Positions 18,712 through 24,385 of a stretch of DNA of 64,000 bases are shown in pieces. The stretch is taken from the NCBI RefSeq assembly GCF_008727865.1, contig NZ_VTWU01000006.1:248001-312000 (forward strand). The letters are read 5' to 3'. The notes below the pieces were generated by a model. That model saw nothing but the letters and a program-made list of their open reading frames with translations. It was not told the DNA's origin and made no database searches. A program made the translations under genes and the position numbers. Source of the stretch: Hymenobacter busanensis (GTDB taxonomy: Bacteria > Bacteroidota > Bacteroidia > Cytophagales > Hymenobacteraceae). Every line of letters begins with the position of its first letter. Within the stretch, counting starts at the first letter, position 1.

Positions 18712-18886
18712 GCACCTCTGGTTTACGGGTGGATAAGAGGAATCGGGTTGCTTCGGGCAGCCCAACTGGGGTAAGATAGCAGTTCGGGGTTAATATTCAG
18801 CTCCGGTTTGGCAGGTGCTTTTCCGAACCGCGCGCCGCGCGAAATGCGTAGGTAGCAGGCTCTCTTTATCGGCAGACTTACTTGCA

Positions 18887-20191
18887 ATGACTGAAACCGA
18901 CATCCTGATTATCGGCGCGGGCGCGGCCGGCCTGATGGCTGCCCGTCACCTCAGCCAAGCCGGCCGCCGCGTGCGGGTGCTGGAGGCCCGCCACCGGCTC
19001 GGCGGCCGTATTCACACCTTCACCGATGCCGGATTTCGGCAGCCCACCGAAGCCGGGGCCGAGTTTCTGCACGGCGACGCGCCACTGACCGAGGCCCTGC
19101 TGCGCGAAACCGGCCAGCCCTGGCACGACACCGGCGGCACGAGCTACGAGCTGTTGGCCGGGCAGCTGCGCGAGGCAGAGGAGTTTATGGAAGACCTGCC
19201 GCTGCTGCTCGACAAGCTCCACGCCTTGTCCCACGACATGCCCCTGGCCGAATTTCTGGCAACGCACCTGCCCGAAGACCATTACGCGGCCCTGCGCGAA
19301 CAGGTAACACGCTTCGCCGAAGGCTTCGACGCGGCCGATGCCCAATGCGCCAGCGCCTTCGCCCTACGCGACGAGTGGTCCGAAGGTGGCGCCGAAGACT
19401 CGCCGCGGCCTTTGGGCGGCTACGGCCCGGTGGTAGCGCACCTCGCCAAGCAGTGCGAGGCTGCCGGTGCCACCATTCGGCTGGCGACGGTGGTGGAGGC
19501 CGTGCGTTGGCAGCGCGGGCACGTAGAAATTGCGTGCACCGGCGGCGAAACGTTTCGGGCTGCGCAGGTCTTGGTTACGGTGCCGCTGGGCGTGTTGCAG
19601 GCGCCGGCCGGCAGCCCGGGCGCCGTCCGGTTCGAGCCCGAGCTACCGGAAATGCGCGCGGCCGTGGCCGCTATGGGGTTTGGTCCCGTCATCAAAGTGC
19701 TGCTCGAATTTCAGGCCGATTTCTGGACTGCTGCCGTGCCCGAGGTCAGCCGCCCTATGCCCAACTTGGGCTTCCTGTTTTCCGATGCCGCCGTGCCCAC
19801 CTGGTGGACGCAACTGCCCGACGCCCGCCCCCTGCTCACCGGCTGGCTCGGCGGCCCCGCCGCCGACCGCCTGCGCCACACCCCCGACGCCGACGTATTG
19901 GCGCTGGCCCTCGCCTCGCTCAGCCAGCTGTTTGGCACCGGCGAAGCGTTTTTGCGGGCCCAGCTGCAAGCGCACCGCGTCGTCAATTGGGGCGCCGATG
20001 CGTTTGCGCGTGGGGCCTACGCCTACGCCACCGTGGAAACGCCCGCTGCCCGCCGGGTGCTGGCCCAGCCCATCGAGCACACCCTCTTCTTCGCCGGCGA
20101 AGCCGTGCACGACGGCCCCAACATGGGCACTGTGGAGGCAGCCTTGGCCAGTGGGCTGGCCGCGGCCGAACACATGCTAAGCAACCGTTGA
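18887..20191 (+). CDS. FAD-dependent amine oxidase
   Basis: 434-residue flavoprotein of the monoamine-oxidase family. DILIIGAGAAGLMAARHL (residues 4-21) is the FAD Rossmann motif, VLEARHRLGGRIHT the conserved GG doublet block after it, and EAGAEFLHGD the next FAD contact. VLVTVPLGVLQ is the family motif in the middle, and LFFAGEAVHDGPNMGTVEAAL the C-terminal FAD-contact block. It likely oxidises an amine or amino acid to imine with H2O2 release; the substrate is not predictable. No signal peptide is seen from ATG 18887. An open frame extends 24 codons upstream but is basic and unlike a family N-terminus. Confidence 0.92.
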   Translation: MTETDILIIGAGAAGLMAARHLSQAGRRVRVLEARHRLGGRIHTFTDAGFRQPTEAGAEFLHGDAPLTEALLRETGQPWHDTGGTSYELLAGQLREAEEFMEDLPLLLDKLHALSHDMPLAEFLATHLPEDHYAALREQVTRFAEGFDAADAQCASAFALRDEWSEGGAEDSPRPLGGYGPVVAHLAKQCEAAGATIRLATVVEAVRWQRGHVEIACTGGETFRAAQVLVTVPLGVLQAPAGSPGAVRFEPELPEMRAAVAAMGFGPVIKVLLEFQADFWTAAVPEVSRPMPNLGFLFSDAAVPTWWTQLPDARPLLTGWLGGPAADRLRHTPDADVLALALASLSQLFGTGEAFLRAQLQAHRVVNWGADAFARGAYAYATVETPAARRVLAQPIEHTLFFAGEAVHDGPNMGTVEAALASGLAAAEHMLSNR

Positions 20192-22197: not shown

Positions 22198-23235
22198 CTA
22201 CAGCAATTCCACGCCGGCCGCAGCCAGTTCCGTGCGCACGGCTTCGGGCCAAATGCTCACCTGCACTTCCCCAATGTGCGCTTTGCGCAGCATAAACATG
22301 CACACCCGCGACTGACCAATGCCGCCGCCAATGCTTTTGGTGAGCTGGCCGGTGAGCAGCAGTTGGTGGAAAGCCAGGGTTTTACGGTCGAGGCAGCCGC
22401 GCACTTCCAGCTGGCGCAGCAGGGCCGCTTTGTCCACCCGAATACCCATCGACGACACTTCAAAGGCCGATTGCAGGACCGGATGCCACAGCACGATGTC
22501 GCCGTTCAGGCCGAAGAAACCGTCCTCGGTGCGGGTGCTCCAGTCGTCGTAGTCGGGGGCGCGGCCGTCGTGTATTTCGCCGTGGCTCAGGGGCCCGCCA
22601 ATGCCGACGATGAACACCGCGCCGTACTGCTTGGCGGCTTCGGTTTCGCGCTCCTTCGCCGTGAGCGTGGGGTAGCGCTGCAGCAGCTCTTCGGCGTGAA
22701 TGAACGTGATTTGCTCGGGTAGCACGGGCATAATATCGGGGTACTCTTCGGCCACGCGCAGTTCGGTCGTGCGCAGGGCGTCGTAGATTTTGCCCACGGT
22801 TTCCTTCAGGAACGGAATGGTGCGCTGCTCGGGCAGAATGTGTTTTTCCCAGTCCCACTGGTCCACGTAAATCGAGTGGATTGGCGAATAATCCTCGTCG
22901 GGGCGCAGGGCGCGCATGTCGGTCAGGATGCCGCGGCCGGCCGGAATGCCCAGCTCCATGAGGCGCAGGCGCTTCCATTTGGCCAAGGAATGCACCACCA
23001 CGGCTTGCTGCTCACCCAGAGCCTTAATGGGAAACGCCACGGGCCGCTCCACCCCGTTCAGGTCGTCGTTGATGCCGGTGCCGTCGAGCACGGCAATGGG
23101 CGACGACACTTTGGTGAGTTGCAGCTGCCGCGCCAGTTCGCGGGCAAAGGTGTCTTTCACGAAGCCAATGGCTTCTTCGGTGTGAAGCAGCGCGGCGGCG
23201 CTGGAGGTGTGCACGGAGGCAGTGGCCGTTTCCAT
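22198..23235 (-). CDS. asnA: Aspartate-ammonia ligase (asparagine synthetase A)
   Basis: Makes asparagine from aspartate, ammonia and ATP via aspartyl-AMP. It is structurally related to class II aminoacyl-tRNA synthetases. The 345 residues are close to E. coli AsnA (330). Recognisable blocks include VSSPIAVLDGTGINDDLNGVERPV, VHSLAKWKRLRL, GRGILTDMRALRPDED, IYVDQWDWEK, and the C-terminal SIGGGIGQSRVCMFML (class II motif 3-like ATP site). The start is ATG 23235 (METATASV). Upstream lies an attenuator-like leader: an Asn-rich 34-codon ORF, an antiterminator segment and an intrinsic terminator, described separately. This implies control by asparagine supply through transcription attenuation rather than by an AsnC-type regulator, which is absent from the window. 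Confidence 0.95.
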   Translation of the reverse strand: METATASVHTSSAAALLHTEEAIGFVKDTFARELARQLQLTKVSSPIAVLDGTGINDDLNGVERPVAFPIKALGEQQAVVVHSLAKWKRLRLMELGIPAGRGILTDMRALRPDEDYSPIHSIYVDQWDWEKHILPEQRTIPFLKETVGKIYDALRTTELRVAEEYPDIMPVLPEQITFIHAEELLQRYPTLTAKERETEAAKQYGAVFIVGIGGPLSHGEIHDGRAPDYDDWSTRTEDGFFGLNGDIVLWHPVLQSAFEVSSMGIRVDKAALLRQLEVRGCLDRKTLAFHQLLLTGQLTKSIGGGIGQSRVCMFMLRKAHIGEVQVSIWPEAVRTELAAAGVELL

Positions 23236-23370
23236 AATACAATGGGTATTGATGTGAAAAAGAGACGTGTGGAATTTGGGTTTCCAAAACCCATTGGCAA
23301 GGCTCCGCACGACCGAAAAAACAAGACGTTTTTTCGGTTTTTGAAATCCGGGAAAAGGCCGCGTATGGGC

Positions 23371-23400
23371 AAAAAAAAACCTTCCGAAAAACGGAAGGCT
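23371..23400 (-). terminator. Attenuator terminator in the asnA leader
   Basis: On the minus strand: 7-bp stem CCTTCCG / CGGAAGG with a five-T loop, followed by nine T, a textbook intrinsic terminator. It points towards asnA and lies about 135 nt before its start codon, so transcripts ending here would never reach asnA. Its 5' arm starts 9 nt after the leader-peptide stop codon. It could also end read-through from the nuclease gene upstream, whose stop is at 23645, but the 245-nt distance and the leader ORF favour attenuation. Confidence 0.88.
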
Positions 23401-23475
23401 TTCAAATCAATTATTGATTTTGGGTCTGTCTATGAGACCAATAGCCTTCCATCGTCGGAACAAATTATTGTTCCG
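23393..23475 (-). promoter_or_regulatory. Alternative RNA structures of the asnA attenuator
   Basis: Two competing elements on the minus strand. (1) CGGAACAA-TAAT-TTGTTCCG, 23475-23456, is a perfect 8-bp hairpin containing the AAC-AAT-AAT codons. (2) ATGGAAGGCT at 23452-23443, inside the leader, is complementary over 10 pairs (one G-U) to AGCCTTCCGT at 23400-23391, the 5' arm of the terminator, so it can act as antiterminator. A ribosome stalled at the Asn run would open element 1 and leave element 2 free to pair with the terminator arm. A ribosome stalled at the last two Asn codons would sit against the terminator arm itself. Both would let RNA polymerase continue into asnA. Confidence 0.75.
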
Positions 23476-23511
23476 AATCTGGTTATTGAGGCTGTTGGCG
23501 AAAAGGTTCAT
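23407..23511 (-). CDS. Asparagine-rich leader peptide of asnA
   Basis: 34-codon ORF, ATG 23511 to TGA 23409-23407, too short for most gene callers. Nine of 34 residues are Asn: positions 2, 6, 9, 10, 14, 15, 16, 33 and 34. They include an AAC-AAT-AAT run in the middle and two AAT codons just before the stop. It begins MNLFANSLNNQIRNNN and ends PKINN. No known domain is present. Placement directly before a terminator and upstream of asparagine synthetase matches amino-acid biosynthetic leader peptides such as those of the trp and his operons, where the ribosome stalls at codons for the regulating amino acid. There is no Shine-Dalgarno sequence, which is usual in Bacteroidota. That it is translated is inferred. 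Confidence 0.8.
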   Translation of the reverse strand: MNLFANSLNNQIRNNNLFRRWKAIGLIDRPKINN

Positions 23512-23536
23512 GGCTGCGCTGTTGGGCGTTTGCACC

Positions 23537-23544
23537 GCAACATA
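23537..23544 (-). promoter_or_regulatory. Possible -7 box of the asnA leader promoter
   Basis: TATGTTGC on the minus strand, close to the Bacteroidota -7 consensus TAnnTTTG, with an AT-rich TTTTCG about 18 bp upstream. It would start the transcript about 20 nt before the leader ATG. This is a weak match, listed because the region is AT-rich against its surroundings. Confidence 0.35.
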
Positions 23545-23644
23545 ATGAGGAATTACGGAAGCGAAAATAAAATGGCGAAAAATATTTTCAACTACGGTCT
23601 TTGAGGTGCTTTAATGAAAATTTATTGTGCGAACTATTGGCGGG

Positions 23645-24385
23645 CTAGCTCGCCGCTTCGGTGTCGTCTTCCTGCTCGGGCGGGGTGTGGCCCAGCTCCA
23701 GCACCACGTCGCGCACCGAGGGGTCCAGGTACTCGGGCACCTTTTTGGGGTCGAGCAATTTGAGCAGGCGCAGGTACTTGGCGCGGCCTTCTTCCAGCAT
23801 GGCCGGGGGCACCTCAAACACGAAGAGGTGAAACGGCTCGACTTTCTGCACGCCCACCAGAAGAAACCGCTCGGCGCGCAGGGCATCGGTGTAGAATGCC
23901 GCTTGCCGGTCATAGTCGTAGCCCGAGCACTGAGCCACAAAGTGGTGGTAGTCGCGCGCGACGGTGGTTTTGAAGTCGATGACGGTGTATGGCTCGCCCG
24001 GCACGTCTACCACGAGGTCGGCGCGCAGCTTGCACATGGTGCCGGTAGTGGGCTCCGTAAACACGCAGCTGGGCTCGGCCACGCCCTGCTCCAGCATGGC
24101 GCGCAAATCGTCGCGGATGCGCACGCCTTCCACCAGCCACCACACCAGCGTGTCGTTGACGGCGGGGTAGCTGGGCACGTACTGCTCGGGCTCGAGCAGG
24201 GCCGTATGAAAAGCGGTGCCGAAACTCAAGGCCGAAGAGCCACCGGTTTCGCGGCGGGGCCGCCCGTTGAGCGCGTCGCGCAGCTTCGAGAGGTCAGAAT
24301 TGGCAATGGCGGGCAGGGCGCGGTAGTCGTCGTAGGACAGGCGCAACAGGTCGGGGCGACGAAACGGGGCGGGGGAATCGGACAT
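23645..24385 (-). CDS. RecE-like PD-(D/E)XK exonuclease
   Basis: 246 residues of the phage-type PD-(D/E)XK nuclease group (RecE / exodeoxyribonuclease VIII C-terminal domain). SNSDLSKL-like IANSDLSKLRDALNG and ALSFGTAFHTALLEPEQY form the N-terminal family signature. LRADLVVDV supplies the metal-binding Asp, VIDFKTT the D-x-K catalytic pair, and GYDYDRQAAFYTDAL the conserved Q-x3-Y helix. RecE-type enzymes resect 5' strands of double-stranded DNA for single-strand annealing, normally with a RecT partner, which is not in the window. ATG 24385 is chosen; 28 further upstream codons look non-coding. It is divergent from the dNMP kinase gene 112 bp away, a pairing that suggests phage descent. Confidence 0.75.
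   Translation of the reverse strand: MSDSPAPFRRPDLLRLSYDDYRALPAIANSDLSKLRDALNGRPRRETGGSSALSFGTAFHTALLEPEQYVPSYPAVNDTLVWWLVEGVRIRDDLRAMLEQGVAEPSCVFTEPTTGTMCKLRADLVVDVPGEPYTVIDFKTTVARDYHHFVAQCSGYDYDRQAAFYTDALRAERFLLVGVQKVEPFHLFVFEVPPAMLEEGRAKYLRLLKLLDPKKVPEYLDPSVRDVVLELGHTPPEQEDDTEAAS

Follow-up and report, generated by a model that had tools for sequence, protein, structure and literature searches.

What is the role of the short, asparagine-rich reading frame that lies upstream of asnA in Hymenobacter busanensis? From 64 kb of DNA of this bacterium (the window) and the corresponding loci of its relatives, we propose, with a probability of roughly 90%, that the leader of asnA acts as an asparagine-specific transcription attenuator of the classical, ribosome-mediated type. 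The observed basis of this proposal is the set of parts and their coordinates, their conservation, changes on both sides of three helices, and the link with asnA.

The asnA leader and its exclusive helices

The gene downstream of the leader encodes a 345-residue protein that matches TIGR00669, aspartate–ammonia ligase (E = 1.6e-121; 405.7 bits, with a cut-off of 292.8), and the start of the leader open reading frame (ORF) lies 276 nt from the asnA start on the minus strand. The ORF is as the original prediction described it, with 34 codons translating to MNLFANSLNNQIRNNNLFRRWKAIGLIDRPKINN, followed by a stop, and nine Asn codons (2, 6, 9, 10, 14, 15, 16, 33, and 34). It is the only one with at least six Asn among the 258 ATG-started short ORFs (15–60 aa) of the window; given their Asn rate of 2.1%, a count of nine in 34 codons would arise by chance with P = 3e-8, or 8e-6 over all 258. 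Its start and stop both precede the terminator in the window, and in some relatives (e.g., L045) it extends beyond the terminator. The other predicted elements are present as well: a perfect hairpin over the middle Asn run (P0; CGGAACAA-TAAT-TTGTTCCG), the segment ATGGAAGGCT (23452–23443, minus strand), which is complementary to the 5' arm of the terminator, and the intrinsic terminator ahead of asnA, which reads AGCCTTCCG...CGGAAGG and then nine T. A mechanical terminator scan of 22900–24000 returned no terminators and so missed the attenuator's own; the hairpin and T run rest on sequence and fold. The coordinates are collected in Table 1.

Table 1. Elements of the asnA leader region, by position in the window.
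Feature	Position	Strand	Basis or remark
Possible -7 promoter element TATTTTCG	23562..23569	-	58 nt before leader ATG; one mismatch to TANN(T/C)TTG
Leader peptide ORF, 34 codons	23407..23511	-	Asn-rich ORF at equivalent place in relatives
Region 1 (GCCAACAGCCT), partner 23447-23437 (AGGCTATTGGT)	23489..23499	-	MFE fold, pair counts, and swap test
Hairpin P0 with Asn codons 14-16, nested within 1:2	23456..23475	-	Sequence and fold
Region 2 (GGAAGGCTATTGGT), partner region 1 or region 3	23437..23450	-	Fold, pair counts
Inner antiterminator stem GGTCT/AGACC (23439-23435 with 23427-23423)	23423..23439	-	Swap test
Region 3 (AGCCTTCC), antiterminator 3' side and terminator 5' arm	23393..23400	-	Pair counts
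Intrinsic terminator 3:4, nine T	23371..23400	-	Sequence, fold, relatives
A-run and hairpin between terminator and asnA	23310..23341	-	Conservation by eye; single copy in genome
asnA, aspartate–ammonia ligase	22198..23235	-	TIGR00669 match

Bacteroidota promoters have the consensus TAnnTTTG. The candidate -7 element of the window is accompanied by a TTG at 23591–23589, 19 nt further upstream. Across the 53 leaders described below, TANN(T/C)TTG occurs within -75 to -10 of the leader ATG in 31 (shuffled sequences gave a mean of 3.0 and a maximum of 8); the window, a weak promoter candidate, is outside the 31.

Between the terminator and asnA, the arms of the hairpin that follows the A-run read CCGAAAAAAC/GTTTTTTCGG in the window and CTCCC/GGGAG in many relatives; by eye, across the 41 Hymenobacter-type loci, the letters vary and the hairpin persists. 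On the opposite strand, this element looks like an intrinsic terminator.

The 201 nt from 23560 to 23360 fold with -61 kcal/mol, compared with a mean of -39.5 kcal/mol for shuffled sequences (z = -4.63; 0 of 200 as good). In the minimum free energy fold, region 1 pairs with region 2 in a 1:2 protector helix that encloses the Asn hairpin. In the alternative pairing, region 2 contributes GGAAGGCT (23450–23443) to an antiterminator with the 5' arm of the terminator, prolonged by the short inner stem. Antiterminator 2:3 and terminator 3:4 are mutually exclusive because they share region 3, and 1:2, 2:3, and 3:4 together are the classical attenuator set. Asn codons 6, 9, and 10 lie in or beside region 1, and codons 14–16 in the hairpin just before region 2. 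The original prediction held that the full set of attenuator parts was in place; the parts it named are there, but it named neither the 1:2 helix nor the inner stem, and the middle-Asn hairpin, present as it is, does not by itself compete for region 2, for which the enclosing 1:2 helix is needed.

Conservation and covariation among relatives

Relatives were gathered by scanning genome contigs with asnA, and the best 80 of 249 were kept as loci. A model of the leader, R1, built from the window and 40 loci first found through their upstream ORFs and terminators, matches upstream of asnA with E below 1e-4 at 54 of the 80 loci; 40 of these match by construction, and the 14 outside model building range from 1.3e-26 (L025) to 4.1e-5 (L078). 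All 41 loci titled Hymenobacter or Solirubrum match, as do 13 of the 39 others, including records with the titles Draconibacterium, Salinivirgaceae, Flammeovirgaceae, and Bacteroidales; 26 of the 80 asnA loci have no R1 match at this threshold. Of 55 loci tried, 52 were located by pattern (L056, L075, and L076 were not), giving 53 leaders with the window, and alignment A1 comprises 41 sequences, the window and 40 of the 52 pattern-located loci, the rest, mostly near-duplicates, being omitted.

In A1, helices 1:2 and 3:4 show standard pairs in 92.7% of cells, and nine of their 16 pairs have changed on both sides; none of 500 shuffles scored as high, and slid versions are 34–58% paired. The antiterminator 2:3 is paired in 97.0% of cells, with three of eight pairs changed on both sides and slid versions at 39–67%; 46 of 500 shuffles reach this both-side count and none reaches the covariation score. 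The outermost 1:2 pair is G-C, A-U, G-U, C-G, or U-A in 36 of the 41 rows. The helices were defined on single sequences, which makes sliding only a mild control, and one that favours 1:2. RNAalifold on A1 predicted only the terminator; the 1:2 helix was therefore defined on the window and L019 before its pairs were counted. The register that P0 has in the window does not hold across A1, the relatives using a shifted one; a hairpin of at least five pairs within 32 nt before region 2 was found in 52 of 52 leaders versus 507 of 1,040 shuffled sequences.

A swap test covered 52 leaders; L078 was excluded on account of a region 2 that departs from the pattern. With relatedness not fully removed, own partners in 1:2 pair at -12.77 kcal/mol versus -10.61 kcal/mol for swapped ones (z = -7.9), and three mock pairings gave z-scores of -1.3, -2.0, and -0.7. 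For the inner stem, own partners also outdo swapped ones (z = -7.0), but the mock control shifted as well (z = -3.7), so this stem is less certain. Region 2 is read in frame 0 in 13 and in frame 1 in 39 of the 52 leaders, and hence is conserved as RNA and not as peptide. Aligned with those of relatives, a comparison that the original prediction had recommended, the asnA 5' regions retain the Asn-rich ORF together with antiterminator and terminator while the helices change on both sides; this conservation and the both-side changes in 1:2, 2:3, and 3:4 support its reading of the locus as asparagine-sensing attenuation.

The Asn codons of the leaders are also unusual in kind. AAT makes up 249 of 335 Asn codons in the 42 Hymenobacter-type leaders (window included) versus two of 158 in asnA of the same loci, where codons were counted over about the first kilobase per locus and over the whole gene for the window. 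The T-ending share of other NNY codons is 274 of 522 in the leaders versus 1,438 of 7,196 in asnA. The AAT bias is thus in part a product of the general A/T-richness of the leaders and of the hairpin, and in part specific to Asn codons. AAT is decoded by the same tRNA as AAC through wobble, and a link of the AAT preference with queuosine is speculation.

Could the hairpin be a mere terminator of the upstream gene (24469–23645), and the Asn-rich ORF a by-product of an A/T-rich spacer? That gene lies on the same strand as the leader and ends 134 bp before the leader ATG, AAT is itself A/T-rich, and NNY codons for other residues end in T more often in the leaders than in asnA. Yet the AAT share exceeds the T-ending share of those other NNY codons in the very same leaders, a simple terminator requires neither an antiterminator nor a conserved Asn ORF, and at 53 loci the longest upstream ORFs make up 19 groups without relation to one another (a rough grouping, with either strand allowed) while asnA is constant. 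We regard this explanation as highly improbable.

A proposed model for asparagine-dependent control of asnA

From these features we infer a transcription start, translation of the leader, ribosome stalling, and a response to asparagine, which would act together as follows. RNA polymerase would transcribe the leader with a ribosome following on the 34-codon ORF. When charged Asn-tRNA is plentiful, the ribosome would pass region 2, and either 1:2 would form behind it or region 2 would be covered; region 3 would then pair with region 4, and transcription would end at 23371, behind the T run. If charged Asn-tRNA runs low, the ribosome would stall at codons 6–16 and hold region 1 and P0 open, leaving region 2 free to take region 3 through GGAAGGCT and AGCCTTCC, with the addition of the inner stem GGTCT/AGACC. 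The terminator would thereby be prevented and asnA transcribed. Judged from sequence, asnA is most likely switched on only when asparagine is short.

A folding model, in which transcription is halted at the end of region 3 and the ribosome is masked, was applied to 13 leaders (the window and 12 hand-picked loci). In the window, the probability of the antiterminator, P(2:3), is 0.98–1.00 for a ribosome placed at Asn codons 2–16 and 0.00 for one at the stop. Averaged over the Asn codons, P(2:3) lies above 0.5 in 12 of the 13 leaders (the exception being L011, 0.07); for a ribosome at the stop, it is 0.00 in 12 of the 13 (the exception being L019, 1.00). A second mode, suggested earlier, in which the ribosome would pause at the final two Asn codons and sit against the terminator arm, finds no support: this position gives a P(2:3) of 0.00, and hence no antiterminator, and none of the 52 relatives ends in Asn-Asn, the window standing alone among the 53 leaders.

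The same model also sets bounds on what folding can explain. Truncated RNA free of ribosomes prefers 2:3 in six of the 13 leaders, the window among them (0.87), so that 1:2 need not win without translation. In the window, each ribosome position up to codon 17 favours 2:3, as do codons 29 and 30 (0.94 and 0.96), and codons other than Asn before region 2 behave in the model as the Asn codons do. The model alone therefore does not single out the Asn codons, and specificity must come from where the ribosome actually waits.

Control of asnA by a ligand- or tRNA-binding RNA, with an incidental ORF, would dispense with the waiting ribosome. T-boxes precede asnA in some Firmicutes, according to the original prediction, and asparagine tRNA ligase genes are often the second genes of T-box operons, as passages of one survey (PMC2494555) state; passages of the same survey report no T-boxes in seven Bacteroidetes/Chlorobi genomes. 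Neither the window nor the leaders of 17 relatives gave any Rfam match at gathering score, the T-box covariance model included, and the two matches found in those 17 relatives, TPP and tRNA, are both away from the leaders. The conserved features, moreover, are Asn codons and short exclusive helices, and a T-box or riboswitch seems to us extremely improbable. Equally hard to credit is that the active part is not the attenuator's terminator but the hairpin at 23341–23310, an antisense RNA, or Rho. This A-run hairpin does occupy, by eye, an equivalent position in the window and in the 41 Hymenobacter-type loci, and it looks like an opposite-strand terminator; but an intrinsic terminator with 6–10 T is present at all 41 of these loci, and in L076 and L078 fewer than 60 nt separate the end of the attenuator's terminator from the asnA match, with little room for such a hairpin.

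Distribution, tandem leaders, and related systems

Within the family, the leader is linked with asnA. Among 120 family genomes, asnA was found in 31, R1 with E below 1e-14 in 26, and both in 24, and a strong R1 match thus occurs in 24 of the 31 genomes with asnA versus two of the 89 without (to judge by the listed handles, both counts come from one and the same draw of 120 genomes). The seven asnA-bearing family genomes without R1 (six of genus g174, and G421) had no ORF with more than three Asn in the 520 nt upstream. In the seven leaderless family loci L133, L134, L135, L137, L138, L140, and L150, asnA starts differently by eye (MSQNLYIPKQY, MSNFLFIPAQY, or similar), and the attenuator may therefore accompany a single lineage of asnA.

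The reverse case is seen in G434 and G458, which have R1 and no asnA match, and in which regions 2 and 3 and the terminator are kept along with a leader ORF that, translated by eye, has six Asn. These orphan attenuators (L160 and L161, in G434:C47 and G458:C9) lie at about 313–460. The next long ORF, on the other strand, is amine oxidase-like by eye, and a similar amine oxidase-like ORF lies downstream of asnA in the window (18815–20191, by eye). We read the two leaders as left behind by the loss of asnA, although each may instead be a small RNA of its own.

In a sample of the phylum, asnA was present in 14 of 296 genomes, and none of the eleven outside the family had such a leader, the most Asn being five in 31 codons (L101). 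A scan of 395 phylum genomes with R1 gave 120 with E up to 0.01 but just three below 1e-10 (the own genome, G079, and G173); of 27 weaker loci taken, 25 had a readable match and none resembled an Asn leader, and the count of 120 was set aside as mostly noise or other leaders. For asnB, the most Asn-rich short ORF within 600 nt upstream was considered at 37 loci (eight of the own genus and 29 others), and none was judged an Asn leader; such ORFs had one or two Asn in the own genus and at least four in ten of the 29 others. The sequence was read at seven of the asnB loci; L199 has a 16-codon ORF with five Asn but no visible terminator.

At twelve loci outside Hymenobacter (L043, L046, L053, L054, L056, L057, L058, L062, L067, L070, L075, and L085), a second Asn-rich ORF with its own terminator lies between the first terminator and asnA. 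The first leader of L075 matches R1 only with E = 0.0012 and is thus outside the 54. The second leaders have an Asn run; in most of them Pro codons come next, and these C-rich codons directly after the run look like region 1 of the second leaders. Region 2 of the second leaders pairs with its own region 3 at -12.72 kcal/mol versus -9.61 kcal/mol with those of others, and none of 20,000 permutations was as good, in a test that ignores kinship and in which L054 is weak as located (-4.1). In Hymenobacter, no second Asn leader was seen; at three of the 41 loci, three AAY codons in a row occur in this position, without a recognised ORF and terminator.

What might be gained by reading one amino acid twice? 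We speculate that an older arrangement in Bacteroidota is a two-stage serial attenuator, in which both Asn leaders have an antiterminator of their own, with a steeper or two-threshold response to asparagine, and that through the choice of AAT the switch also senses how well tRNA-Asn decodes (GUU or queuosine wobble), an idea that we consider unlikely. If it were true, asnA would also answer to queuosine status. Because it has the same amino acid twice per leader, the tandem form of the relatives offers a way to examine directly what is gained by serial attenuation, and the use of AAT in leaders versus AAC in asnA makes the role of synonymous codons in attenuator sensitivity testable.

How does the asnA leader compare with known systems? 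The leader-peptide attenuators of the his, trp, thr, and ilv operons in Proteobacteria are the classical examples of ribosome-mediated attenuation. The asnA leader shares with them a short ORF rich in codons for the product amino acid, exclusive 1:2, 2:3, and 3:4 helices, and an intrinsic terminator; it differs in that it would sense asparagine, in its single-gene target, in its occurrence in Bacteroidota, and in having P0 nested in 1:2, kinship of sequence having been compared via Rfam only. Bacteroid-trp RNA is a trp leader of tryptophan genes, whereas the target here is asnA; its model gave no Rfam match at gathering score in the window or in the leaders of 17 relatives. As described in passages of PMC2864571, Bacteroid-trp RNA (RF01692) is, like the asnA leader, a predicted cis-regulatory RNA of Bacteroidota. 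The tandem loci resemble Salmonella mgtCBR, where, according to parts of PMC3641672, two short ORFs per leader are expected to govern both the stem-loops and whether the coding region is transcribed; the mgtCBR target is a virulence and Mg transport operon, whereas the tandem relatives have Asn runs in both ORFs and asnA as the target.

Closer in phylogeny, leader peptides upstream of amino acid operons are described in parts of a study of Flavobacterium psychrophilum, a member of the same phylum, the main text of which does not mention asparagine or asnA (PMC9723704). Leader-peptide-like attenuation is noted in two Bacteroidota (PMC9723704 and PMC7366714, with asnA absent from the main text), and in the passages concerned the mechanism is apparently not worked out. 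Among the papers listed in the literature searches, no title or abstract opening described an Asn leader for asnA; Lopatovskaya 2010, a relevant comparative study, may hold an earlier prediction. Classical attenuation is already known; asparagine specificity for asnA is an apparent addition, and the tandem form would be a variant. With the attenuator proposed here, leader-peptide attenuation would extend to a further amino acid and gene, asparagine and asnA, and its leader is a compact, conserved test object.

Leader-like ORFs of other composition were also seen, each before a terminator-like hairpin. Two weak R1 matches, L122 and L106 (G026:C21 and G368:C190), have Met-rich leader-like peptides (MMPFAKNTFNIAAIRGMMCMMMYFFTKG in L122), and an ORF with CCC (MKNITKNSAVVLANNSCCCTPANMMSSEVFV) in L119 (G042:C19) is a possible Cys attenuator. 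Those of L107, L124, L125, L109, and L120 are rich in Ile and, for L120, in His (GHHHSIRMH); runs of the Ile codon ATT were read by eye in L107, L124, and L125. These Ile- and His-rich ORFs suggest that leader attenuation may be common in Bacteroidota.
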